Assembly (NCBI GenBank): GCA_029339195.1
Contig: JAPTJF010000208.1
Span: forward strand, 37,957-101,956
DNA length: 64,000 nucleotides
From: Micractinium sp. NFX-FRZ
Lineage: Eukaryota > Chlorophyta > Trebouxiophyceae > Chlorellales > Chlorellaceae
Reading direction: 5' to 3'
In this document: piece after piece, positions 6,574 to 49,500 of the stretch
How the letters are laid out: every line of letters starts with the position of its first letter
Numbering within the stretch: position 1 is the stretch's first letter
The notes under the pieces: generated by a model
The model's input: only the letters and a program-made list of their open reading frames with translations
Told to the model about the DNA's origin: nothing
Database searches by the model: none
Program-made: the position numbers and the translations under genes

Positions 6574-8530
6574 GAGTTTTCAGCACGCCCGTGCCTGAAA
6601 GTGTCACCGCGAGCCTCCGGTCACCGGCGCCTGGCCGGTCCGATGGCTTCAGGGCACAGCCAGCTCCACGTTTGAAGCTTGTTTCAAAACACGCACTGGA
6701 CAGGGCTGACCCGCGTGCGGCAAGTGAGAGGGCCTTGTTGAGGTGGGCCCTCCTCAGGTCTGCATTCACAGGTGGCGGCGAGCTCCATGAAAAGCCCGCT
6801 GTGGAAGGGATGGGAACCCACCTGCCGTACAATATCAAGAGCAACACAACAGATTGAGTGCATTTTCGTGTCGGGTGCGATCTTTTGGAGGAGGGCGCAT
6901 GGTCTCTGAGGGGGGCCATGCGATGCGCGGCGGCCTCAGTCGCACCGCTTTGCCCAGGCGACCCTCTCCCCCTCGTCTCAAGAGCTCACCAGGAGCGGTG
7001 CTGGGCAAACTTGGGACAGCCTGGCCTTGCAGGTTCTATGCACACCGACCAACTCCAACTGGCCAACCACAGCACACTAGCACCGCTGCTGCCAGGATGC
7101 GACAGGGGTGTGCGCAGCTCCCATGCCGGTGGGTGGCTTTGCCCGCCACCCTGGCAGGCACAGCTCCCCCCACCTGATGCCCATTTTTGCAGCGGATGCT
7201 GCCGACCAACCGAGCCGGGGGCCAGCCTGCAAGGCGCTGCTCGCCTGGGTCGCCGGAGCGCAGCGGCAGCTGGTCATGTGAGCTGCAGCGCTCCCTCATC
7301 ACTCCTGGCGATGTGCCGTAACTTTGACTGCTGCTAAAACCATTGTTGACAGCCACATATGCCAGGGAGCCTACATGGATGGCAAAGCGAACCGCCTGGC
7401 AAGCCCTGCCGGCCACATGTGGCAACCAGCCGCTGGCTACGTTCGTGAGGGGGTGCCCAACTCGGCGGCCAATTTTCAACAGCACGCGCAATAATAGCCG
7501 TATGTGTCGTAATATACCTAATAAGTCTGCATTCAGGTCAAGGGGGAGAGCGCAGCCGCTTTCGGGCATGCTCCCTCGCCATGGCCATGGCGGCGCCATG
7601 TCTCCCTCTTAGGTACTTTGAGGACGACTCAGATGCTTCCCAGGGGGTAATGGAGGATTGTGGCACATCTTGTGATGTGCCAGAAGGGTCTGACGTGGCC
7701 GAAAGACGCGACTCGGGTGTGCAACCTTCGTGTAGTAGCCGCCCTGGCAGGGCAAGGAAACCCCAACCCAATTCAGACATTTACATATTGTTTTGTAGAC
7801 CTTAGAAACTGGGATACATGCACATACGTGGAGGAAGGCGTGGCGACGAGCTGGCAGCAAAACGCTTGCTGCCTGCGTTAAAATAAGCTCATCTCCTCAA
7901 TCTGACACCTGAGCACCGTGTCAGATTCAGGAGGTAGGCTATAATTATAGGGTTTTTGCACGTTTTGGGGCTGGCACTGGTTGGACGCCCTCTACAGAGC
8001 ATGTGCAAGCATCCCAAATTTTCAGGTCTCAAAAATTCGCGAATTTGACCTTCCTGGTGACATTTGGCTCAGGTTGGCCACCCACAGCAGTGCATGGTGG
8101 CACCCCCCCCCACGAACGTAGCCCGCTGCCAGCACCGCTCATGGCTGGTGCCGGCGGCGCCGCCTCTTTAGTGGTGCTGGCCCGCTGCGGACCGCCGTTA
8201 CAGGCAACCGGTGGCTCAACGTCTTTCGCCGGCCTGGCGGCAACGTGTGGGTCGACGGTGTGAGAAACCACTGACAAGCGGGAGCAGCAGCGGCAAGCGC
8301 AGACAGCGGCTACCTTTTTTAGCCATGGTGAGGATACGTTTTCCCGGTCCCAAAGTGTGCACGTGACCCAAGGCCTCGGCTTGTTTGCGAAGCCCTTCTC
8401 TCACACGCGGCTCTCTCACACGTGCCCTACATGTGGAAACTAGAGTAAGAAACATCGCCTGATGCGCCGCAGGACCGTGCACGGCACCCTCGCCAGCGCT
8501 GGCAGGCGGCACCCGCCGCTGCACCTGCAG
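6574..8530. other. intergenic, no convincing gene
   Basis: Nearly 2 kb between the membrane protein gene and the F-box/LRR gene. A 187-residue open frame on the minus strand (7036-7599) and shorter ones lack splice context and protein-like composition. The stretch is less GC-rich than coding regions, has AT-rich patches near 7780-7970 and 8010-8060, and holds a perfect palindrome at 8033-8046. The 5' exon of the LRR gene is probably inside it. Confidence 0.4.
8033..8046. promoter_or_regulatory. 14-bp perfect palindrome in AT-rich sequence
   Basis: AAATTCGCGAATTT is its own reverse complement and lies about 500 bases upstream of the F-box/LRR coding exon. In GC-rich sequence such a site is unexpected and could bind a dimeric factor; the TTCGCG core resembles E2F-type sites. 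Only the palindrome is seen; the role is inferred. Confidence 0.3.
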
Positions 8531-10431
8531 GCCCCCCCGCCTTCCCTGCCAGCACCCTCCTCCTGGGCTTGCCCGGGGACACTTTGGCGCTCATCGCCTC
8601 GCTGCTGCCGCTGGGCGACCGGGTCAGCCTGGCAGCTGCCTGCAAGGCGCTGCTTGCCAGCTCAACGGAGCACAGCGGCGGCTGGTGGGGCAGCATAGCG
8701 CCGCCCCGCTTCCTCTTGCCGGAGCAGCTGGCAGCGCTGAGCGCCTGGCTGGTGGCGCGCCGCCCGGCAGTGCGGCAGCTGAAGGCGGTCGCTGGGAAGC
8801 TGGAGGGTGGGCTGTGCACCGGCATCACGCTGCCCTCGCCCCCACGTGAGCGCTGGCCATGCCCTGCCTGTGGAGTTGCTGCAATCCCGCCTGGCTTGTC
8901 ACCATCCCGACCCCTGGGGTGGGGCAGCTGGTCCCCATGCCCTGCCTGCCACCGCTGGTGCAAGGCTGCTTGCCTGTCCCCGCTGCTGCCCCCTGGTGGC
9001 ACCAGCAACGCTAGTGGTATGCATCTCTCTGCAACCCTTGCCCTGCCCAGCGCTGCCTTGCCCACACACCCCCTGCCTCTGCTCCCTGCCTTTGTCCTCC
9101 CTGCCTTTGTCCTCCGCCCCGCCCCGCAACCCTGCCCTACCACCCTGCCTCACCCTCTGCCCTGCCCTGCAGTTCCCTCCCTGGAAAGCCTCTTGCTTAG
9201 TGAGCAGGCGCTTGATGGCGCCATGCTGGCAGCACTCGCGGCACACACGGGGCTCACACGGCTCGTGCTGGCAGGCTGCCGCCTCGCCCCGCTGCCGCTC
9301 TCGCTGGCCGCCCTCCCCCGCCTGGCGCACCTCGACCTGACGTGCATCGGCCAGCTGCAGGGCACCGAGGTGCTGGGCTCCCTAGCCACCAGCCAGCTGA
9401 CCCACCTGTCGCTGCGCACGCGGCGCCTGCAGCACTCCGCTGCGGTCTTTCGCGCCTATGCCGCGGTGCCGGCGCTGCCAGCGGGCGCCGCAGTACACGT
9501 GCGCCAGCTCAACCTGTGGTACAACGCGCGGCTGTCGGCCACGGGGCCCGGCGTGGACCCCGGCTGGTCCCGCCTGGCCGGCTTCACCGCCGTGTCGGAG
9601 CTCTCTCTGGGCGGCATCCGCCTGCCCGCCCAGCTGAGCCTGCTCGCCTCCCTGCAGGCGCTCACCTTGAGCACCCACACAGTGCTGGGTGACGCCGACT
9701 CCCTGTCAGCGCTCGCCCCGCTGGCGCGCCTCACCCGGCTGGACCTCTCCCGCTGCCACATGGTTGCCGTTCCGCCTGCCCTCTCCGCCCTCACCACGCT
9801 GCGCGACCTCAGCGCACAGTTCAGCGACACGGCCGGCCTGCCCCATGTCTGCTCCCTGCGCCGCCTCACCCGCCTCGACCTCAGCGTGAGGCACCAGGGC
9901 CCCACGCAGCTGCCGCAAGAAGTGTCCGGCCTGTCGGAGCTGCACACGCTCAAGCTGCATGCCCGCGTGGCACGGCAGAGCTGGCGCCACCTGGCGGCCC
10001 TCCCAATTGTCCACCTCACCGCCTCGGATTGCGGCATCAGGGAGCTGCCCCCCGGCTTCACCCTGCTCACCCGCCTGCAGACCCTCGACCTGTCGGGCAA
10101 CGGGCACGCGGAGGGCGGGCTGCAAGGGCTGGAGCGCCTGGCGCACCTGCCAGGCACGCTGCACGCGCTGAGCATGCGCGGCTGCAACCTGGCTGCAGTG
10201 CCACCAGCGCTGCGCAGCCTGGCTGGCTTGCGGTACCTCGATCTGCGGGACAATGAGGAGTTGCGGGAGGGTTTCGGCCTCCTGACCGCGCTGCCGCAGC
10301 TCGAAACCCTGAAGCTTCCCCCGAGCTGCGGCCTCCTCGGCATTCGCAAGCTGGACAGGCTGGTGGCCCGCAGTGCCAGCTGTCCCGCTCCTCCCAACTT
10401 TGACACCACCTCGTATCAGCGCTGGTTTTAG
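8531..10431 (+). CDS. F-box-like / leucine-rich-repeat protein
   Basis: Model join(8531..8845,9173..10431), 5' end unresolved. The frame is open back to 8449 with no ATG, so translation probably starts in an upstream exon spliced at a CAG ending at 8530. The intron is CCAC|GTGAGC to CCTGCAG|TTCCC. An F-box-like segment opens the protein (LLLGLPGDTLALIASLLPLG, then D-x-V-S-L-A-A-A-C-K). The rest is a series of LRR units of the L-x-x-L-x-L type, e.g. LTRLVLAGCRLAPLP, LTRLDLSRCHMVAVPPAL, LQTLDLSGNG and LRYLDLRDNEEL. The protein ends FDTTSYQRWF. Known proteins of this plan are substrate receptors of SCF ubiquitin ligases; the substrate is unknown. A plain LRR protein remains possible because the F-box match is short. 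Confidence 0.75.
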
Positions 10432-12020: not shown

Positions 12021-14899
12021 ATGTTTGGGTTCGATGGGAAGAAGCAGGTGATGCCTCATGGGGCCGCGCCGCCAAGGCGCCAGGCCAGCGACGCAAGCCG
12101 TCTGCCGCCGCCTGTCGCCGCCACCGCGCCGCCCGCCCGTCTCCCTGCCCCATTGTCCCATCCCTCATCCCATCCACCCGCCCATTGTGCAGGCCAAGTG
12201 CTCCCAAGACGATGAGAATTTTGAGATGATCAAGGCGTGCTACAGCCCCGCAGGGAGCCCCGTAGCAAACCAGGTGAGTTGAGCACCCACGTCCCCCTTC
12301 TGCTGCAGCGGCACTCAGCTGGCTGCCGCCAGCACGTGGCTTTGCGGCTGCGTGACTTTGGCTGGAGATTTGTGGGTGCACAGCCGGAATGCTACTGCTG
12401 CCAAGGATTAGTCATGCTGCAGCAGCCTCCTCAACGCCCCAAACCGCCGACACTGCGTGCAGGTCGGCGCCGGCAAGCGCCATGGCGGTGGCGTGCTCAG
12501 GCTGGGCGGGTCCTGGTTCCGGCCTTTCCTGGGCTTCCTGGCGCTCTGCACGGCGCTCACGCTTGCCATGGCAGTGACGTGGACAGCCGGAACTGGGGGG
12601 GGCAGGGGCTGCGGTGGCCCCTGCAGCGCCCAAGCAGGTGGACAGGCGGGCGCGAAAGAGCTGCAAGCCGTGGCAGAAGGCCAGTGGGGTTGGGCAGGGC
12701 TGCGCTCTACGCGCGTGGGGCTCGCAGTTGCAGAAGCGGTTGCGGCATGTCACGTTGCTTACAAAAACAGCCGGCTGGGATGCCTGACACTCTGCACCCA
12801 TCTGCCTGCAGAGCGCCGATGCCTGCTGCTCTGTGCCTGCACACTCATGTACTGCCAGCTCATTCTGTGCTTCTGCTGCAGGGCAGGACGGCACTGCCAG
12901 CCAGGCAGGCCCCTTCCTCTTCATCGGAATATTGTCGGGTGCCGGCTTCAGGGAGCGCAGGGACGCAGTGCGGGTGGCGTGGTCCGATGCGGCGCAGCGA
13001 CCTCCAGAGGTGGGTGCTGCTGCGGGCGGGGTCCGCTGTCTCAACAGGGCACAGCACAGCACAGCACAGCGCAGCTCAGTGCAAGCGATTGTGTGCCCTT
13101 CCGCGCCCTGCCCTGCAGCTGCCTCCATGGCAGCCTCGCCTTGCACTCCTCCACCTTGTTCTGAAATCCACAACCTGCAGGTGGCCTGCAAGTTTATACT
13201 GTCAGAGGCGGAGCGCAGCCCAGAGAGCGAGGCTGAGCAGCAGCGGCATGGGGACTTGCTGTTTGCACCGCTGGAGGCGGGCGTGAGCCCAGAAGAGGCT
13301 TCCAGCTACCGCAGCATCCTGCACAAGACCTTCCACGTGAGGCAGGCTGGTGGATAGTGTGAGGAAGCCTTGACAAGTGGGCAGGGGTGTAAAACCGTGT
13401 CCTGGACATGGCACTGGCCCGCTGCCGCCAGAGCTCGTTGTGCGGCCATGCAACACAGGAGGGCGGGGGCAGATGTGGGGCTCCCTGGCCGACCCAGGGC
13501 TGGCCTGCCTGATGGCTGCGTGCTGCTCCTGCTGCTGCTGTGCTGCCTGCAGGTGCTGGAGCACGCGGCGCGGCAGCACCCCGACGTGCGTTTCGTGCTG
13601 AAGACTGACGACGACGCGTGGGTCAACGTGCCTGCTCTGCTGCGCACGCTGCGCACGCTGTGCCGCACCCCCGACTGCTCCCGGGAGGCGCTGTACATGG
13701 GTTACATGCTCAAGGGCGCGCCTGTGGTGACGACAAAGGGCCACAAGTGGGCGAACGAGGCGTTTGCTAATCACACAGGTGTGTGGCACCTGTGTTGCTG
13801 CACCCAGCAAGCCGCTGGGGCCTGCAGCCCATTCGGGGCGTGCTGCCTTCGCAGGCTGGCAAATGCTGGCGCAGCCCAGGCCGCACCCCTTCCAAGCCCT
13901 AAGTTATGCCTGCCCCCCACCACTATAGCTGCTGCCTGCTTGCTCCCTGCCAGCCCTGCCCTGCCCTGCGCTGCCCCACCTTGCCTCACGAAGCACCATG
14001 ATCGTGGTCATGCCCGCCCGCTCCTGCACCCGCTGCTTTATGCAGGCCTGGCACGCTACCCACGCTACGCCTCGGGTGGCGGGTACGTGCTGTCTGGCGA
14101 CCTGGTGCGCAGCCTGGTGCAGACGCACAGGCAGCACGTGCCTCTCAAGTTCACGTCGGCTGAGGACGTCAGCGTGGGCATGTGGCTGATGCAGGTGTGC
14201 GGGATGGAGCACGGGCGTGGGGGCGAGGGGCTGTGCTGCAAAATGGACGGTTGTTGAGGAATGCGTAAGGCAATTGTACCCAGTGGGGAAGGCACGAAGG
14301 CCATGCGCACTTATGGCGCAGCGTGAGTGGCGTCCCCGCCATGCAGTCAAAATAGGGTCAAACTGATGACGGTTTGCTGCTGCCGGGGGATGCAACTAGC
14401 TTGCTCTCTTGCCACCTGGCTCCACCGGGTGCAGCGACTTGCACTCCCAACCAGCTCTGCCCCCCTTGCACTGCTGCAGTACGACCTGCGGCAGGTGCAC
14501 TCCGACCGCTTTCACACGGTCGCCAGGCCCTGCTGCTTCTTGGACGTGCGGCGGGGGGGCGCGGGCAAGGAGGGCAGTGCAGGCAGCACAGGCGGAGCAC
14601 AGCAGGCGGGCAGCCTGCAGGGGGCGGGGACGGCTGGCCGAGCACAGCAGGCGGGCAGGGCTCAGAAGGCGGGCAGGGCACCTGCTGCGGGCTCGCGTGC
14701 GCTGCTGCAGGCGCAGCAGCCACAGATACAGCAGCCACAGGTGCAGCAGCCTTCAGTGGGTTCGCCCCTGCGCATGATGCCAACATTTGAGAGCCAGCTG
14801 TGCGGGCCGACGCCCTTCCTGGTCCTGCACAAGCTCGAGCCTGAGCGCCTGCGCATTGTGGCTGACCGGGCACACGCATGCCGCACCATGGATGAGTGA
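12021..14899 (+). CDS. beta-1,3-galactosyltransferase-like protein (GT31), 8 exons
   Basis: Model join(12021..12047,12193..12273,12463..12637,12882..13009,13181..13336,13553..13778,14046..14194,14480..14899); phases close at 453 aa. It is a type II membrane protein: short cytosolic N-terminus (MFGFDGKKQ), then a signal anchor at about residues 57-76 (FLGFLALCTALTLAMAV). GT31 hallmarks follow in order: FLFIGILSGAGFRERRDAVR, a YRSILHKTFH segment, the acidic metal-binding motif KTDDDAW at about 206-212, YASGGGYVLSGDLV, and TSAEDVSVGMW. The family transfers galactose (or GlcNAc) from UDP-sugars in the Golgi; plant members act on arabinogalactan and other hydroxyproline-rich proteins. After YDLRQVHSDRFHTV comes an unusual Gly/Ala/Gln-rich tail of about 120 residues. 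The exon 3 donor (AGCAG|GTGGAC) was chosen because only that phase fits. The exact acceptor cannot be read from sequence. Confidence 0.88.
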
Positions 14900-15700: not shown

Positions 15701-17010
15701 TTACATCCACCGGACGGCCACCTCCAGGCAGGCCCACACCAAGGCGCCCGACGGGAGCAGCAGCGGCAGCCAGTGGAGGAGCCGCAAGATGAGGTGGGGC
15801 AGCCGGCTGGGGGGGTCTGGGACAAAGGTGTTGAGGCCAATGCTCAGTAGCGAGGTGGGGGTGGGGGAGGGTGTGCTGCTCACATCAGAAGCAGAGATGC
15901 CAGCTGGCAGCAGGCTGCTGTCGCTGCCGCTCTTGCTGTGCCTGCTGTCACCGCTGGCAGCGCCTGGCTGCTGGCCCGCAGGCGCGGCTTCCGCTCCCGT
16001 CCCTGTTCCATAATGATGCCAACGAGCCTGCTCGGGAGATGGGCTGGGGCTTGTGCTGCCCTGCTGCCCCGCTGCTGCCTGCTGCTGCTCCTGCTGCCAC
16101 CAGTGGGCGTGCTGCGCCAGCGCTGCCAGCACAGCGGTGGGCAGCAGGTAGCCGATTACAACTGTTAGCCATACGTGCATCATCCAGCAGCTATGCTCCG
16201 GCTGCAGGGCATGCTGCTGCTGCTGCTCCGGGCCGCCTGGGACTAATGCCAGCAGGGCAAGCCGTGCGCAGCGTGCAAAGCTGGCACACTTGGCGGCCCG
16301 GTGGGGCAGCGCGGCGTGCAGGCCGGCCAGCTGGCGCATGCGGGCCAGCGCGGAGCGTAGCGCCAGCGCCTGCACCCACAGGTGGTGCTTGAACGGCAGC
16401 GGCAGCAGCACCGGCAGCGCTGCTAGGAAGAGGGCCTGCACGGGAAGAGAGGTGGATAACGGCAGGCAGGGTTCGGGCTCAGGTGACTTGCTGGTTCGTG
16501 CTTGCTCTGCGTCCCGTGCATGCCGGCCTCCTCAGACCAGCCAAGCAGCTGATTTGAGCCTACCACTGCCAGCACTTGGGGAGGTGTGCCCCCCAGTTTG
16601 TGCGCCTCCGGAGCGGAACGCCCCTGGATTGCGGCAAGGAATTCCGCCATGTACCGGCAGGCAGGCGAGGGCTGGAGGGCTGCTGACGAGACAGGCAGGC
16701 GCACCTCAGCGTTCATCCATCTGAAGGGTGCGCCAGACGCTAGCGCGCGAGCATACGGCAGCAGGCCGGCGCACACAGGCGCCCAGGCTGCAGCCACCGA
16801 CGCCGAACCCAGGCGTAGCGCGGCCACGACTGCTGTGCGGTCTGGGTGCACGGCGCCAAGCGTGAGGCCTCGCCGGCGGAAGGCCAGCACCCAGGTCAGG
16901 GCAAGCGCTGCCAGCGCCAAGTGCAGGGCACGCGCCGCCTGCTGCGACTTAAACCCTGGCGACGGCAGGCGCGGCGCCGCTGCGCCGTCGGCCTCGCTAC
17001 CAGCTATTGC
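15701..17010 (-). CDS. multi-pass membrane protein, paralog 2
   Basis: Model complement(join(15701..16435,16705..17010)), 5' end open; 346 residues are readable. The exon 1 fragment (SQQAARALHLALAALALTW) and exon 2 (ALFLAALPVLLPLPFKHHLW, EHSCWMMHVWLTVVIGYLLP, HWLPLLLPSGALVWA) align along their length with paralog 1. The intron sits at the same place and in phase 0 (NAE|ALFL versus STE|AIFL). The first readable exon starts after a CCCCTGCAG acceptor and has no Met, so a first coding exon lies upstream. The central loop between hydrophobic blocks is longer and Ser/Gly/Gln-rich. As in paralog 1, the stop TAA is embedded in GATGTAAGTG, a consensus donor. Function unknown; probable membrane localisation from hydrophobicity alone. 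Confidence 0.6.
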
Positions 17011-18369
17011 CTGCAGGGGAAGTGGCCCATGGGCGGCCAGCAGCCCTCAGTGGGCGTCAGCAAGACCTGAAACCGTGACGAGTGCTCGGAGGGTTGAGCC
17101 ACACTACTGGCACGCTGTGGGGTGGCCCACTCCCAGCCTGGCTCACCATACTGCCCGCCCGTGGACCGAGGGCAACTCAGATGTATGCGTGGACAGGTCA
17201 AGGCGTCGGTTCGGCAGGGAGGTGCACACTCATGGAGCGCCTCAAGCGGAGGCTGTCAGGGGCAACCCGCCTTCCCGTGGGGCTGGCAGGCTCGAGGCTT
17301 TGCCCGAGGCAGTGGAGGTCGGCCCCCAATCGATAGACGCCCCACGCCTAGCGAGGAGGGAGGACGAGTGACAGGGTAGTCTAGAGACTGGTCAGTCCAA
17401 GTAAAACTCTTGATAGGTTGTGAGCGGGGAAGGCGGCCCAGTTGTCGCACATCTGACAAGGCGTTAGGACCGCCCGAAGGCCTAGGCGGGGGCGCGCATG
17501 CGAGGTTTGCCCCCAGTACTGTATGCTTCGCCAGCTTGTTGGCACCAGCGTTGCTGTTGGGTTGGGGCAAACAACCGCCCTGCTGCTTATGCGTCGAATG
17601 CAGTTGGACGAAGGGCGCCCCACGCGCCGTCGAGCAGCTGGCTTTGCAGCCGACGGACCGGCAATGGCAAGCTTGGCCACTGGTCCGGGGGAGCTCTCCC
17701 GGGCTGCGCCCCTTCCATCAGGAAGCTCTAGACCATACTTGAGTAACGCTATACCATGCAGGGGGTGGACTACGCATCTGAACATGGCTCACACTGGAGA
17801 GCGGCAGGTGCGGCGCTACCGTCCAGGCGCCTAGACCCCCGGCCGTCTCCACAGAATTGAGGTGAGCACTGGAGGCTCCCCCCTGGAAAAGTAGGCCTCC
17901 TCAATGCTGCTGGAACACTGCAGGAAGCTTCTGCAGGTCGCCGGCTGTCTGCTGCCTGCATGCGGAGGAGGCGCTCGACAGCATGCGCAGCTGCATGCAG
18001 GTCAGCCGATGGTCGTCACCTTGTACTCTTCCCACAGGCCATGTGTGGTCCCAGAGGGCTGAACCAGCAGTGAGACTTCACGAGCAACAGCGGGCGGGCG
18101 GGCGGGTAGGGGCAAAGGGCTCGCACGCTCGAGTGCAGCTGATCAATGTCCCATGAGCGGCATGTTTGCAACCATCAACGTCATTAACAATTAACCGGCC
18201 ATTGCTTGATGACTTGCAGGAAGCCGGCACATTGCAGGCGGCAGGGTGACAGCGCCGGCCGCAGACACATCTGGCATCGCCCCGCCTGCGCTTGCCCCGC
18301 CCTGCCTGCCCGCCTGCCTGAGGCGCGCTGCCCGGGCCCGTCGTGCGTGCCCCATCCCCGCACCTGCAG
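17011..18369. other. unassigned region, AT-richer, probably 5' exons and promoter
   Basis: It must contain the missing first exon of membrane paralog 2. From about 17160 to 17830 base composition differs from the surroundings. One coding-like fragment, LHAEEALDSMRSCMQ before a GTCAGC, sits at about 17955-18000 on the plus strand and may be an upstream exon of the next gene. No frame could be closed. Confidence 0.35.
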
Positions 18370-19180
18370 GGCGGGACAGCGCCCACCGCTCTCCTCTCCA
18401 AACAGAAGATGCTTCCCCGGCGGAGTGGCCCAGGGCACACCGCCCTTCGGCAGCGCAGCTCCGAAAGCCCCGGGCCAAGTAAGGTGCAGTGCCGCGCCTT
18501 GGACGCACACTTGACCGACCCCTAACCCGCCTTGTGTGTCTTGGCAGGCGCAGCGCTGAGTCAGCTGGTGCCGCCTGGTAACTGACTGGTGCGTTTGGCT
18601 TGAATTCCTGTTGGCTTCCTCAACCCCACGCCCTCGGGCTGTAGCCTTCTTCTACTTTCTTCTTCTTCAGCTGGTGCCGCCTGCATGAGCGCGCGTGGAG
18701 CGCTGCGCAGCGCAGCGCAGCAGCCGCTGTCGCTCGTGGGCGGGGCGCCTGCAGGCTGCCTTGGAAGCAGGTTGCTGCACATGCTGCTGAGGAGCTTTGC
18801 AGCACGAGCGCCCCTGAATTACCCCCGCAATGACCGCCCCGGCGCTGCGTGCACTGCAGCGTGCTGGCAGCTGTGCGCCCGTCAGGCAAGTGGGCTGGGC
18901 CATGCGGGGCAGTGGGGGTAAGTGCGGAGCTGGCAAGAGCAGGGAAGCCTGGTTGAGTAGCACGCAGCCTCATCGGCCCAGGCTGGCGTTTGCCTGGGCA
19001 GGTGGACTTTATTTTGGTGCAGTGCAAGTGTAACGTTGATCGCGATGGTCAGGCTGTCCACTTCTTGCCTTGCCCGTGCAGATTGAGCTCCTGAGCAGCG
19101 AGTGCATTGCGCGGCGCTGCTCCCGCGCGCTGCCACCGGCACCAGCGCTGGAGCACCTGGCAGCGCCTCAGCCGGCCTGA
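18370..19180 (+). CDS. unidentified gene, 3' part, with an element-derived intron
   Basis: Tentative join(18370..18478,18548..18577,18671..18885,19082..19180), 5' incomplete. The phase is consistent through all junctions and ends at TGA 19178-19180. Exons read SKQKMLPRRSG, AALSQLVPP, LLHMLLRSFAARAPLNYPRN and IELLSSECIARRCSRALPP. The second intron is the inserted element at 18578-18667. An alternative donor inside the upstream repeat copy (CTG|GTGCCG, after 18567) would also work; it keeps the other exon frame and adds just one codon to the pre-insertion sequence. The last intron would use a GC donor (CAG|GCAAGT). No domain is recognised. The frame of the first two exons is therefore not settled. 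Confidence 0.4.
18578..18667 (+). mobile_element. introner-like element forming an intron
   Basis: A 90-base insertion is bounded by a perfect 16-base direct repeat, cagctggtgccgcctg, at 18562-18577 and 18668-18683. The insert begins GTAACTGACTGG and ends in a pyrimidine tract (ttctactttcttcttctt). With the first bases of the downstream repeat (cag) this makes a complete GT..AG intron. Its core matches three other places in the window (4810-4910, 47113-47189, 48455-48540). Insert-plus-repeat structure and intron shape together are what defines introner elements in other algae; the family itself I cannot name. Confidence 0.75.
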
Positions 19181-20484
19181 TGCTTCGCCCGCCTGCAGTG
19201 CCCCTACCCTCGCGTGCTGCTCTCTTCTCAACCCATTTTAGTCCTGGACTTCTGTCCGCCAGCTCACAACCCCCGACCACAGGTGTGCGTGTGTGTTTTG
19301 GGCTTTTGGGTGGGGCACGCCAATGGCTGGTTGGGTCGCGGGGGGCAGACGGACAGGCAGTGCTGCTCCCTCCTTGGGCAGCACAGCTTGTCCTCCCCAG
19401 CTGCGAAGGCCACCGCTCTGCTTCCTGGCCGGTTGCAGCCGTCGCACCCAGCCCCAGGCCGGCAGCTTCCCCTGCTCCACTCAGCCATGCATGTGCGCAC
19501 CCACCTGTCCTGCTATTTGTCGCGTTGCAGGTCCCTGCCCAAGGTCGCCAAGCCAATGTGAGCTGGTGCCTCTTGGATGCCAGCTTGCCTCGTGAGGGCA
19601 GCGATGCATGCCGGCGCGTGGCTTGGCTCGGCTGCAGCCAAGCCTGCCAGCTGGTGAGCGGCGTCTGCAAGGCGAGCTCCCGTGGTGGTCGTCCCCGCTG
19701 CGCCCGTCGTGCCAACGCGGGGGGCGGCACTTGGAGAGCAGGGAATGCGCCGGCGGGCTTGGGGGGGTGACGGCAACATGTGTACGGACGGCCGTGTCGG
19801 CTAATGCTGTGATACCTTAGCAGCAGCGCATGCCTGCCCAGCTGTTTCAACACAGTGTGTGTCCCATACCATACACGCATACACCTAAGGCCCTGCACCG
19901 CATGGCAGTCCTCTGCCCGGCCATCCCAAGGCCTCCTGCCTCTACCTGCCACCCTGCTCTCGCTGGTCCGCCTGCCCTTTCCTGTCTTGCCCCACACCCT
20001 GTGCTAACAAAGAGGTGCGCTGTGGGTGTAACACATTGGACTGTAATTGCAAAGGACGCACAGAAGGGCTACTCGGCTTCACTGCGCCCTGCCCAGAAGG
20101 AGGAGACAGGCGGGGAGGGGGAGCGGCGAGTGGAGAAGAGTCCGGGGGTAAATAGTGATGTGTGTGTGTGTTCCAGCCAGCGGTAGCAGACTGGTGGTTG
20201 CTCTGGGCAATGGAGAGTTGCAGCGCCCCTTGATCATGGCGCCCCATGCCGGCGTGCTGCGCTGTGCTGTGGGTGCTGTGCTGCGGGTGCTCGGCAGCCA
20301 CCCAGCAGCCACTACCGTGTGCAGCAATTGACCCCGCAGGGATTGCGGCTGCATCGCCTGCTGCTGCAAACCCCACATACCAGCCGCGCCCGGCGCAGGG
20401 CTGACCAAGATTGGTCGCAGCGGGAGCCACATGCGCGCACGCCGCGGCAGCATGCCACCGCCAGCTCAGCGCGCCACTGCCAGC
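19181..20484. other. intergenic, no gene called
   Basis: An open plus-strand stretch reads VPAQGRQANVSWCLLDASLP after a GTTGCAG at about 19530 and could be an exon, but neighbours in phase were not found. A short (gt)n run lies near 20159. Otherwise this looks like convergent 3' sequence. Confidence 0.35.
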
Positions 20485-22504
20485 TCAGCGCGCGTCGGCG
20501 TACAGGCTCTTGGGCAGGAACTCGTAGTAGGTGCGCACAAACTCCAGCTTGGCCTTCTCAGTGGCCATGCCCTGCAGGGGTTTAGGGTTCAGGGATTAGG
20601 GTGTAGAGTGTTACCGACTATGAGCAGCATGAAGGAAGGTGGGCAGGTAGGTGCCAGCGAGGATGCCGGGCCCCAGCCACGGCACGCCAGGTGGTGGCGG
20701 GCAGCTGCAGCAACATCATGGGCCAGAGCAGAGCCGCTGTGCATGCCCAAGTCCTGGGCGCATGCAAGCAGCACTCCATGCGCTTCCCTGCGCACAGGCT
20801 GGCTGCCATGCCCGCCTTGGTCGCACTCCACACCCCGCACCCCGAGCCACGGCAGTTGGCAGGGGCTGCCGGCGGCCTCATTCACGCTGTCTTCTGAAAG
20901 TAAATGAACTCACACCCTCGAGCTGCAACCTTCCTCTCCTTCATCCTCAGGTACTCCGAACCATCCCCCACCCTCTCACCCCTCACCTCAATCGCGGCCC
21001 GCACGCCCATGCACCCGCCGTGCCCCCATCCCCTCTCACCCTAAAATCCTGCCCTTCACACGCACCTTGACCGCGGTCCACGCATCCCACCGCGAGCGCC
21101 CATCAAAGTCCAGGCCTCCCTTCTCAGCCCACATGGGGCGCTCCGCCGTGTTATCCCCAGACGCCGCCTGCTTGTGCAGGCTGCAGGGCAGGCGCCGGGG
21201 AGAAGGGGGGCAGGCGGAGGGGCACAGGTGGTGAAGATGGGGAGGCACCGCCTGCTTGGCAGGCTGCAGGGCAGGCACCGGCGGGCGGGTGGAGACAGCA
21301 CGGGTGGAGGGGATGAGGGACGCCGCTTGGGCAGGGGGCAGTGCTTCATGTGCAGGTTCAATCGGGGTCAGTAAAGCAAGGGGCAAGGATCATGGGAGGA
21401 AGGGCGAGTGGCTGGACAGGCTGCTGGTGCAGATGTGGGCCCCTGGTGCGCCGGGCAGCCGGTCTTAAGCCGGTGTGAAGGGCAGCTGTGTGGCTGCGGC
21501 CGGCCGGCAGGCTGGTGGGCGGCAGCTTGCCGATTTCAGCAAGGTAGCAGCGGCCCCTCACCCGTAGAGAGTGTAGAAGTCATCTGGCTTGACGGTGGCA
21601 CCACCGGGCTTGCTGCAGCAGCGGAGGACCAAGGTGGGCACGTCTCAGGAGGGCATGGGCTGATGGGGGCAGCGCCAGTGGCGGCTGAGCAAGAGAAGCG
21701 GCGGACGCGCAGGCGCACAGACCAGGAGCCATGCAGCCACAGCCTGGCCCTGCCTGCCGCACATTGCTGGAGAACCACAGTCCTCAGTGCACTGAGGTGT
21801 GGAGCACACACCTCGCTCTGCGTCATGCTGCCGCCCAACTGTGTCTATGCTGCCGCCCTCCTTTCCATGCTGCCGCCCTGCGCTGCAGCGCCCCCCCACC
21901 CACCTGATGATGCGCCAGTTCAGCTTCTCGTACTTCTCCACCAGGGCATCAAACTCCGCTGCATCGTAGCTCTGCGGGGAGGCAGGGGGAGGGAAGGGCG
22001 AGTGGCGGGTGTGGGCGGGCAGCAGCACGTGCTGGGAAGGCAAGCGGGCAGACGGTGTGCGGTGGTAGCAGTCGAGCAGCGGCGACCCCCCTGTTGCACA
22101 CAGATGGCAACCGCGCGGCTCCAGATGCCTCAACGCTTGCAACACACGCGGCCGCGACTTCTCCCCTGCCCCACCTCCTTGCAGTGGGGTGAGCGCTCCG
22201 TCGACTTGCTGGCCTCTGCAGCGGCGGCGCTCTTGGCCGCCGCCTCCGCTTTCATCTTCTTCAGCCGCGTGCGCCCCGCTGCGCACAGGATGTCGGTTAT
22301 CATGTGAGCACTATCGCAGCTGGCCGGCGACTAGCAAGCGCGGGAAGAGGAGCGGCAGGCTGAGAACCTCAGCGCACCTCTCAGCTTCTGCCGGTCCTCC
22401 CCCGGGACGTTGTCCAGGAAAGCGGCCTGCGCGATAGCCGCCTCCAGCGCCTCGATGTCCTTGGCCGCAAGCAGGGCGGCCACCGCCGCTGCGTTGTCCA
22501 CCAT
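20485..22504 (-). CDS. acyl-CoA-binding domain protein, 6 exons
   Basis: Model complement(join(20485..20571,21066..21180,21562..21612,21904..21971,22175..22278,22378..22504)); phases close at 183 aa. The N-terminal 75 residues are an extension: MVDNAAAVAALLAAKDIEAL, then a Lys/Ala-rich helix (LKKMKAEAAAKSAAAAEASK). The ACB domain covers about 78-178. It includes FDALVEKYEKLNW, KPDDFYTLYGLHKQAASGDN, FDGRSRWDAW, and GMATEKAKLEFVRTYYEFLP. The YGLHKQA and RSRWDAW blocks match the ligand-binding helices of the ACBP family. These proteins bind long-chain acyl-CoA esters and buffer or transport them. No signal peptide or ankyrin repeats are seen, so a small cytosolic form is likely. The 494-base last intron carries a telomere-like motif next to its acceptor. 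Confidence 0.9.
20581..20602 (+). repeat. three degenerate telomere-like units
   Basis: TTTAGGG, TTCAGGG and ATTAGGG follow one another. TTTAGGG is the plant and green-algal telomere unit. The tract lies in the last intron of the ACBP gene, about 10 bases from its 3' splice site, where the minus-strand copy (CCCTAAACCCC) may simply serve as branch point and pyrimidine tract. Confidence 0.5.
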
Positions 22505-46543: not shown

Positions 46544-49500
46544 AGGTTGAGGTAGGGGCAGGGGGATACGAAGAGGGAGGGGAGAGGAGGGAGAAGAGAG
46601 GGGTGAGGGGAGGGCTGCCAAATGGCATTTTGGGGGCCAGGAGCGTCACCGCCCAGCGGGCGTTCACGGTGTGTGTGGGGAGGCGGGCGAGGGACGAGGG
46701 GTAGGGGAAGTGCTATCAGTGTGCCAATACTAACAACTAATCTTGCCGGCCCCCCTGCTCGCCCCTGCAGAGCAGCGAGTGGAAGCTGGATGCTGATCCA
46801 GAAGACGTGCGCACCACGCTGCTTCGCAACGGCACGCTGCGCCTGCACCCGCTCCCGGTGCTGCAGTTTGCCAGCGGGCACGTCGCCTTTGTGCAGCGCC
46901 TGCCCTGGAAGTGAGGCGGGGCGGGGCGGGGCGGGGCGGGGACGGGGCGGGGAAGTTCGTGGAGAGCAACAAGCAGGGGCGGGCAGCGGTGGGGCAGGGG
47001 CGAGGGTCGGGGGGCAAGGGTCGGTGGCGTGTGCCTGTGTGCGCGCAGCCCAGGGCAGGTCGCCGGTGCCTGCATGCCACACTCCGGCGCTGGCATCACA
47101 CCACGTCCCCAGAAGCAGCAGAAGATTGCAGCCCGAGGGCGTGGGGTTGCGGAAGCCAACAGGAAACGAAGCCAACGGCACCATTCTTACCATGTCCCCA
47201 GCCATGTTTGCCATGCCCCCCTCGCATCATTCCACCCACGCCCAAGGCACACACAAGCTTGCTCAGGCCTCGCACTGCCCTCCGTAGCATAGGCGGGCCT
47301 AGGTTTTGACCTTCTGTGCTTCCAAACGCCAGGGAGGTGCACAGTCTGCTCTTAACCCATGCATCACCCACGCCCCCGCTGTGTGCGCAGGTACGGTGTG
47401 GACCCCTACGTCGTGCACGCCACCTTCCAGCGCTACTCCACCGGCCTCTCCCGCTACGGCAAGCGTGGCCGCTTCAGGTGGGCAGCCGGGCGGGACGGTG
47501 GAGGACGGAGGGGCCGCGGAGGGGTGGGGGGGTCTGGCAAGGCTCCTCACAGCAGGATTGAGCGAGGGGCAGCGGGCAGACTTGAAAGGGTGCCAACCAT
47601 CCCTTGCCTGTTCACTGTCATAGGGGATTGTTGCGGATGGCTCGCCAGGTTGCATGCAGCAGTACAGTACTAGCGGGCTCCGCTGGCTGCAGCGGTGTGC
47701 TCACGTGTCGGCCTGTGGCCTCCCCTGCCCTGCAGACAGTTTGGCATGTGGTTCCTGGACGGCCCGGAATACTACTCCCCCGCCGGCGCCCGGTACCTCA
47801 CGTACCAGAACGACGTGAGGCAGTACGTGGACGACCTGACCAAGAGGCAGTTCGATGGCGCGCTGCCCCTGCTGTACAAGCACATCATCGCCGTCAGCTA
47901 CCAGCTGGCGCAGTTCAGGTGTGGCGGGGTCACATTCAGGGGCCCGCTCTTGAGCGTGGGATGCATGGGTCTTCTGAGCAGCATGGCCCCAGAACTGGGT
48001 GACTAGTGTGGGGGCCCATCACATGCACACATACATGCCAGTCATGCCCATTGGGATCGGCCACGTGGGCAATGGGAGGAGGGGCGGCGCTGTGGGACGA
48101 TGTGCTCCAGCAGCACATCGTCCCAGGTCAACTGCCAGCTGGTGCAGTTCGGGTGCACGAGGGCAGCGGGAGGGCAGATAGACGCGCTTCAGACTCACAG
48201 CAAGGAGCGGGGGCAGCTTGAGTGCCGCCGCACCCGCTTGCATGGCGGTGTTCAACGGGCACCTTGCTGGCAGAACGCACCACTGTCCCCCGGCTTTCTT
48301 CCCGCCCTGCAGGGATGCCCTGGCGGCCTCACAGATGCTCGACCGCACGCTGGTGCTGCCCAAGAGCTGGTGCTGGTGCGACTACGACTGGACGCCGCAC
48401 GTGGTGGAGAGGTGCAAGATCAGGTGGGTGGGTGGGTGGGTGGGGGCTGGGGGGAAGAAGAAGAAGATTACAGCCCGAGGGCGTGGAGTTGAGGAAGCCA
48501 ACAGGAAATTAAGCCAAAGGCACCAGTCAGCTACCATGGGGGGGGCTGGGGGGCGCATGTTTGCAGGCTGGGTGGCGTAAGTAAGTGTGCAGGCTGGGTG
48601 GCGCATGTGTGGGGTCTGGATGGGGTGCTTGCGTCATCAGGGGTGCATGGTGCCGGCTCAAGCAATTCGATCTGTGCAGCACACACCGGCGCTCTCTGTG
48701 CTCATGCCACGGGGCTGTGCCGCGGGGCAACAGCACCCGCACTCGGCACCAATGGCAGCACCTCTCTCGCCGCGCATGTGTGGAGGCTGGCCTGCCAGGG
48801 GCAGCGCCCTGCACCCGACCCCTTCCGGCTCCCTAACCAGCCAGCCCACCTGCCGTGCCGTGCCGTGCAGGGGCAGCGACTTGCGCCTGCCCTTTGAGTG
48901 CCCCGCCGACTTTGTGTTCCACATACCCTTCATGGACCTCCACCCAGACCTCACATCAGCCTACCGGGTGCCCGGGTTCCTGGAAGATCCAAGGGTGAGG
49001 CCGGCTGTGCAAAGATGGCGTGATGCTTAGTTTTTGTTTGTTGTTTGTTTTGCTTTGCTTTGCTTTGTTTTCGGCACTTCTCTCGTGTCACGGGCTGCCT
49101 GCCTGCCTACGAAGGCAGGCATCATCGTGCTGCCTGCCACGCTTCGCACGACCCTCCGTCATGCCCCGCCCTCCCACCCGCCCCCGCTGTGCACGCCCCA
49201 CACCTCCCAGGTGCCAGCCCCTCCCCTCCCCACTGCACGAAACGGAACTCCAACCAAATCCCTCTCTGCACTGGACCCCGTCCCTCGTTTGCAGGCGCCC
49301 GCAGAGCTGCGCCTGTCCCGCGCCGAGGTGCGCGTGTCGGACCGCCCGCGCCAACCTGGCGGCCTGGCTGGCGGCGCCCTCGGCGGCGCGGCAGCCGACC
49401 GCGCTGTGCTGGCAGCGTCCGATGCGGCGGCGGGGGTGCTGTACCTGGACTCGACACAGCAGGAGCTGCTGGCAGTCACAAACCCGCTGCAGGCGACCGC

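Follow-up and report, generated by a model that had tools for sequence, protein, structure and literature searches.

The locus and its repeat-flanked insert

The 64,000-nucleotide stretch of Micractinium DNA analysed here (hereafter the window) has a GC content of 65.5% and, according to Pfam, contains a leucine-rich-repeat coding stretch at 8449-10431 (+) and a galactosyltransferase-like coding stretch at 13358-14257 (+). At 18561-18577, and again at 18667-18683, the window carries a perfect direct repeat of 17 nt, TCAGCTGGTGCCGCCTG (100% identical), and the 89 nt enclosed between the two copies (18578-18666) start with GTAACTGACTGG and end in a run of C and T. The CAG at 18668-18670 is supplied by the downstream repeat copy. 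A perfect repeat of 16 bases around an insert of 90 had originally been described: the repeat claimed is the present one minus its first T and the insert is one base shorter, while the perfection of the repeat, the start of the insert, its pyrimidine-rich end and the position of the CAG all stand. When upstream and downstream flanks are randomly paired between copies of the element, the 99th percentile of the repeat score is 8.8; the window repeat scores 17, far beyond chance, and bears out the proposal of an insertion with a target duplication. The features concerned, together with two further copies of the element in the window, are as follows.

18561..18577 (+): upstream copy of the target-site duplication, 17 nt (TCAGCTGGTGCCGCCTG); direct reading, repeat search and flank-pair control
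18578..18666 (+): copy of the element, very probably a SINE-like retroposon, 89 nt, 91% identity to the family consensus; family comparison
18647..18666 (+): 3' tail of this copy, a degenerate (TTC)n; direct reading, with variable TTC runs in other copies
18667..18683 (+): downstream copy of the target-site duplication; the CAG at 18668-18670 behind the tail scores as a typical acceptor
48454..48537 (-): second window copy, lying antisense within a predicted intron and flanked by an imperfect duplication of 16 nt; 98.8% identity to the consensus
47112..47193 (-): third window copy, with an 8-nt duplication; 86.9% identity to the consensus

At the first copy, the last bases of the upstream repeat double as bases 2-3 (TG) of the consensus. 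The second and third copies sit 1.3 kb apart and are perhaps of different ages.

The insert had also been read as being itself an intron, that is, as an introner, whose insertion into an exon would create a spliceosomal intron with its donor in the element or the upstream duplication and its acceptor in the downstream duplication. The insert does start with GT, and of the GT..AG signals proposed for it the acceptor at 18670, formed by the tail and the CAG (TTTCTTCTTCTTCAG followed by C), is good, scoring 3.92 against a median of 3.94 for 288 predicted acceptors. The proposed donors, however, are poor: against a 5th percentile of 0.08 for 278 predicted donors, the first GT (CTG/GTAACT, the slash marking the splice point) reaches -0.69 and the alternative after 18567 (CTG/GTGCCG) -1.13. 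A fair donor score of 2.88 (25th percentile 2.53) is obtained for an internal GT at 18589 (CTG/GTGCGT), 11 bases inside the copy. Since this donor lies in the normal range and the acceptor is median-like, the window copy could be spliced if transcribed, an 82-nt intron from the 18589 donor to the 18670 acceptor being possible. At the places of the first GT and of the GT at 18589 the family consensus has GTAGCT and GTGCCT, respectively.

The surroundings of the copy do not look coding. In the annotation by the gene finder described below, the interval that holds it, 17150-20484, is a gap flanked by minus-strand genes. The bordering exons are 20485-20571 and 16705-17010, the latter accompanied by a start piece of 3 nt at 17147-17149, and the predicted genes are identical for the filled and the empty versions of the site. 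The best codon-scored stretch over the empty site reaches 3.3, as against a median of 8.9 and a 25th percentile of 4.4 for plus-strand predicted exons of at least 60 nt. The original prediction had further proposed that splicing from the donor after 18567 to the acceptor at 18670 would restore the pre-insertion sequence plus one codon, CTG; the arithmetic is correct but the coding premise finds no support in the predicted gap. The copy in the window probably sits in non-coding sequence and is likely to be inert.

A dispersed family with (TTC)n tails

The genome searched comprises 66.07 Mb in 838 contigs. A first look gave 137 candidates, and all 40 of those scored match the insert at 84-100% identity. 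Pattern searches with a 14-mer from the 5' end of the insert found 66 places (14 for the reversed control), a 5' 27-mer found 88 and a 27-mer from the 3' core found 85 (no places for either reversed control), and a tail 23-mer found 106 (4 for the control). When merged, with only the 66 tail places having at most two mismatches taken in, the searches give about 136 distinct places, 12 of them reached by the tail alone and three lying in the window; the suggestion that the insert belongs to a multi-copy family is thus confirmed genome-wide. The same genome holds 49 matches to the chlorophyll a/b-binding family.

Sequence flanking the element was analysed for 58 copies out of the approximately 136 places. 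These were fetched by similarity to the window copy or by near-exact patterns, so the sample leans toward young copies. Four of the 62 pieces defined by BLAST, at no more than 50 bits, were excluded before the motif, gene-context and duplication analyses.

The family has a consistent anatomy. In an alignment of 42 copies the mean column identity is 89%, and the consensus starts with ATGGTAGCTGACTGG and ends with GGGCTGTAATC(TTC)n. The 45 near-full copies have a median identity of 92.9% to this consensus and start at the same position or no more than three bases from it, while their TTC tail runs, like those of the other copies, differ in length. By-eye reading of 30 loci fetched with the 3' core finds the 5' part clearly absent in five (L069, L071, L072, L091 and L094), a further five (L075, L079, L081, L090 and L095) having an internal deletion or being ambiguous. 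Among 30 loci fetched with the 5' end, 27 are family copies by the same kind of inspection, and a recognisable 3' end is present in 25 of these, L061 and L044 being doubtful.

Target duplications were assessed against mismatched flank pairs. The 95th percentile of these is exceeded in 37 of the 58 copies, where about three would be expected, and the 99th in 25; the remaining 21 copies have no significant duplication. In the 37 significant copies the duplication has a median length of 14 nt (range 7-21), although TTC bases shared with the tail blur where it begins, and its first two positions are 78% C or T. Only L072 and L094 among the five clear 5' truncations have a significant duplication. 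At two loci part of the element recurs in the 5' flank, namely L041 at about 1485-1524 (GTGCCTTTGGCTT before ATGGTAGC) and L085 at about 1440-1465 (GTAGCTGACT before TGGTAGCTGACTGG), an arrangement suggesting that the template was jumped or restarted at the 5' end.

A fixed 5' end, 5' truncations, a simple tail and duplications of variable length are together the signature of target-primed reverse transcription, as in LINE and SINE retroposition. The present family combines variable-length duplications, a fixed 5' end with truncations, intact 3' ends and a variable (TTC)n tail, and these point to that mechanism. The insert is therefore, with high probability, one copy of a short non-autonomous SINE-like retroposon of about 84 nt including a short tail, and not an intron maker. 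The label 'SINE-like' is preferred to SINE because a Pol III head and a partner LINE remain putative. Matches in the element resembling an A box (one mismatch) and a B box (two mismatches) are no better than those in shuffled sequences (0.33 and 0.72, respectively); Rfam gave three weak matches on four loci, none of them on the element; and no conserved RNA fold was found (5 pairs, -0.57 kcal/mol; single-sequence z of -1.25). For the reverse transcriptase, the genome contains 20 RVT_1 matches above the cut-off. Two strong ones, C824:3161-3997 (-), in an open frame of 1574 aa, and C321:892-1371 (-), are candidate LINEs. Downstream of the 21 tested, no listed family place occurs within 6 kb, tail places being counted up to two mismatches.

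As a SINE-like retroposon, the element would be copied from an RNA ending in (UUC)n. An enzyme from another element, presumably a helper LINE, would nick the strand opposite a pyrimidine-rich stretch, and the (UUC)n tail may then pair at the nick. Target-primed reverse transcription from there would insert the copy, with a target duplication of roughly 7-21 nt and a TTC tail that differs in length between copies, some of them also being truncated at the 5' end.

A miniature DNA transposon (MITE) whose target duplications are long would likewise be short and non-coding, with a perfect duplication at its flanks such as the window copy has. The element, however, contains no inverted repeat of at least 12 nt, and its duplications vary in length where a MITE would have a fixed one. 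Together with the 5'-truncated copies and the variable-length (TTC)n tails, this makes a MITE an exceedingly improbable origin, and it was rejected on the truncations and the variable duplications.

Gene context of the copies

Genes around the copies were predicted with a home-made two-strand gene finder, seeded by exons read from homology and rough splice weights of our own, and Viterbi-trained on 236 kb in 59 stretches, of which a few overlap, so that it annotates the loci on which it was trained. The trained splice signals are CAG/GTGAG and TGCAG/G. An earlier codon model seeded on two ORFs had drifted to proline-rich frames and was dropped. By-eye acceptors that the gene finder missed in L023, L049, L054 and L090 are left out of all counts. 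Among 50 single ORFs submitted to Pfam, 10 from the window and 40 from beside copies, 12 have matches at E values of 0.01 or less.

For each of the 58 copies, the element and, where the duplication was significant, one copy of it were removed and the resulting empty site annotated. Introns hold 39 of the sites, 25 with the element in sense and 14 with it in antisense orientation; the other 19, that of the window copy among them, lie outside predicted genes. (The window copy, L083, enters this count once and the filled-site annotation twice, so that 20 non-genic copies there correspond to 19 places.) Predicted exons, which account for about 21% of the flanking bases, contain none of the sites; by chance some 12 of the 58 would be expected there. 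This absence argues against an intron-making habit. It does not establish a target rule, because selection against exon insertions would also leave few of them. The copies examined lie in pre-existing introns or outside predicted genes, and 36 of the introns are closed on both sides with sequence beyond the element on each, three others running off the locus.

The introns themselves also do not look like those of an introner. None of the 25 sense introns is predicted to begin at the element's GT, contrary to the proposal that the element is itself an intron. The first GT of the element has a median donor score of -2.0 over 44 copies, against 3.7 for predicted donors, and only in the second piece of L084 (0.84) does it exceed the 5th percentile of the latter.

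Protein homology provided a separate check on the introns. Thirteen of the 36 exon pairs, picked because they resembled known proteins, were joined and compared, and in 10 (L018, L030, L033, L045, L069, L071, L072, L078, L080 and L081) at least one search supports a known protein across the junction. The element is sense in six of these and antisense in four, and the supported introns reach 28-620 nt past its 5' side. Pfam matches span the junction in seven of 10 joined pairs: Na/H exchanger (L045), molybdopterin oxidoreductase (L069), DnaJ (L018), protein kinase (L078), HMG box (L081), glycosyl hydrolase 9 (L072) and Trp/Tyr-tRNA synthetase (L080), for which a tryptophanyl-tRNA synthetase structure aligns across the junction too. 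Solved structures aligning across it were likewise found for L071 (DRG1), for L033 (RNA helicase A; no Pfam match) and, weakly, for L030 (kumamolisin, E value 6e-5). Of the other three pairs, L094 has an ankyrin Pfam match that does not span the junction, L034 has a sulfatase Pfam match that does not span it and a best structure match that ends before it, and L025 has no matches against solved structures.

These results bear on the introner interpretation as a whole. In its favour are the splice-like features of the window copy set out above and the many sense copies that end near an acceptor; moreover, passages of Gozashti et al. 2022 (PMC9860276) describe introner families in which one splice site comes with the element and the duplication provides the other, and some that alter transcript length. 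Against it stand the empty exon class, the donor scores, the supported junctions, the non-coding position of the window copy and the orientation of the genic copies, 14 of 39 being antisense. The interpretation was rejected on the exon test, orientation and donor strength and is, in our judgement, very unlikely. The family is real and mobile, but new introns do not appear to be its product.

The two kinds of element have points in common, judging from the same passages of PMC9860276: introners too form dispersed families of short elements in microalgae, with target duplications, and here as there element and duplication together can give a 3' splice site. They differ in that introner duplications are given there as 3-9 bp and of DNA-transposon type, whereas those of the present family are 7-21 nt and accompanied by tails and some truncations; and no copy examined here splits a predicted exon. 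The nearest described kind appears to be the SINEX-1 to SINEX-6 families of Chlamydomonas reinhardtii, which in the relevant part of Ohshima 2013 (PMC3747384), tabulating Cognat et al. 2008, are short, have simple-repeat 3' tails and heads of tRNA or unknown origin, and are partnered with RandI or L1 LINEs. Compared by description only, they resemble the present family as short green-algal retroposons ending in a simple repeat; their tails, as listed there, are (ATT)n, (CTTT)n or (A)n in place of (TTC)n, and partner LINEs are listed for them. A literature search recognised no paper describing the (TTC)n family, a result of little weight since it covered open papers only.

Tail ends and splice junctions

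Within predicted introns the copies tend to have their tail near an exon. In 15 of the 36 closed introns the 3' junction of the element lies within 40 nt of an exon boundary, against 5.2 expected under uniform placement (p 0.0004, 5000 simulations), while the 5' side does so in four, again against 5.2. Restricting the count to copies with a significant duplication retains the excess (9 of 24 against 3.3, p 0.0024), and a direct comparison of the two sides gives 16 of 38 for the 3' side and 4 of 37 for the 5' side (p 0.012). Among the 25 sense copies, the tail ends within 40 nt before an acceptor in 10, one of them in an intron open at the other end. In antisense copies the tail end neighbours the donor, the complement of which is pyrimidine-rich.

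Several duplications involve the acceptor itself. The duplication contains the acceptor AG in L024, L033 and L054 and reaches its A in L026, L034 and L046, so that in these loci the tail is now the pyrimidine tract before the acceptor. At L033, in an RNA-helicase gene, the duplication CTGCCTGCAGGGGCGCA (about 1481-1605, in element orientation) straddles the intron-exon junction, and both acceptor copies stand, the second behind the tail. For a sense copy just upstream of an acceptor, the tail can stand in as the polypyrimidine tract without any new intron arising, the AG behind it still being that of the old intron, whether retained or duplicated.

One explanation is that the retroposon targets splice junctions by choice and not through survival alone, its (UUC)n end priming on pyrimidine tracts and so renewing old 3' splice sites. 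The placement of the tail junctions, the six loci in which the duplication includes or abuts the acceptor AG and the pyrimidine-rich start of the duplications are consistent with this. Other measures fit it less well: the element is nearer the 3' exon in only 21 of the 36 introns (in 23, p 0.13, if it is left in the sequence), which is not significant; nor is the ratio of 25 sense to 14 antisense copies (p 0.11). A motif profile that uses no gene models lacks a sharp acceptor peak. In the 20 nt immediately downstream of the element TGCAGG occurs at 5.2 per kb, most other bins having about 1-4, and [CT]GCAG at 10.3 compared with about 6-9, the latter motif being densest at 40-60 nt; the rise in acceptor-like motifs near the element is thus weak. 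The boundaries, moreover, come from the home-made gene finder trained on the same loci, and the TTC bases common to tail and duplication obscure where the latter begins. Targeting by choice is accordingly regarded as doubtful. Its fullest form, in which the element acts as a self-copying 3' splice site that lands on the pyrimidine tracts of splice junctions, supplies a fresh tract and sometimes duplicates the AG, seems to us equally unlikely. Non-LTR elements selective for particular sequences and for microsatellites were reportedly described by Kojima and Fujiwara in 2004. Insertion guided by a simple target sequence would follow the same principle, whereas the bias seen here is statistical and toward splice junctions. 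The best reading remains that of a SINE-like retroposon of known kind, a preference for splice junctions being unproven.

Were such targeting real, the element would remodel existing introns; on the rare occasions when it entered an exon beside a usable GT, a new intron could result, and a retroposon would thereby come to behave like an introner. As it stands, the family illustrates that a SINE-like element in an intron-rich alga can mimic an introner when seen at one locus, because it carries a GT, a pyrimidine tract and a duplication that supplies the AG. Surveys that recognise introners as families of similar introns can be checked by empty-site and orientation tests of the kind used here. 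If the junction bias holds on all copies, it would link the tail sequence of a retroposon to the turnover of splice sites.
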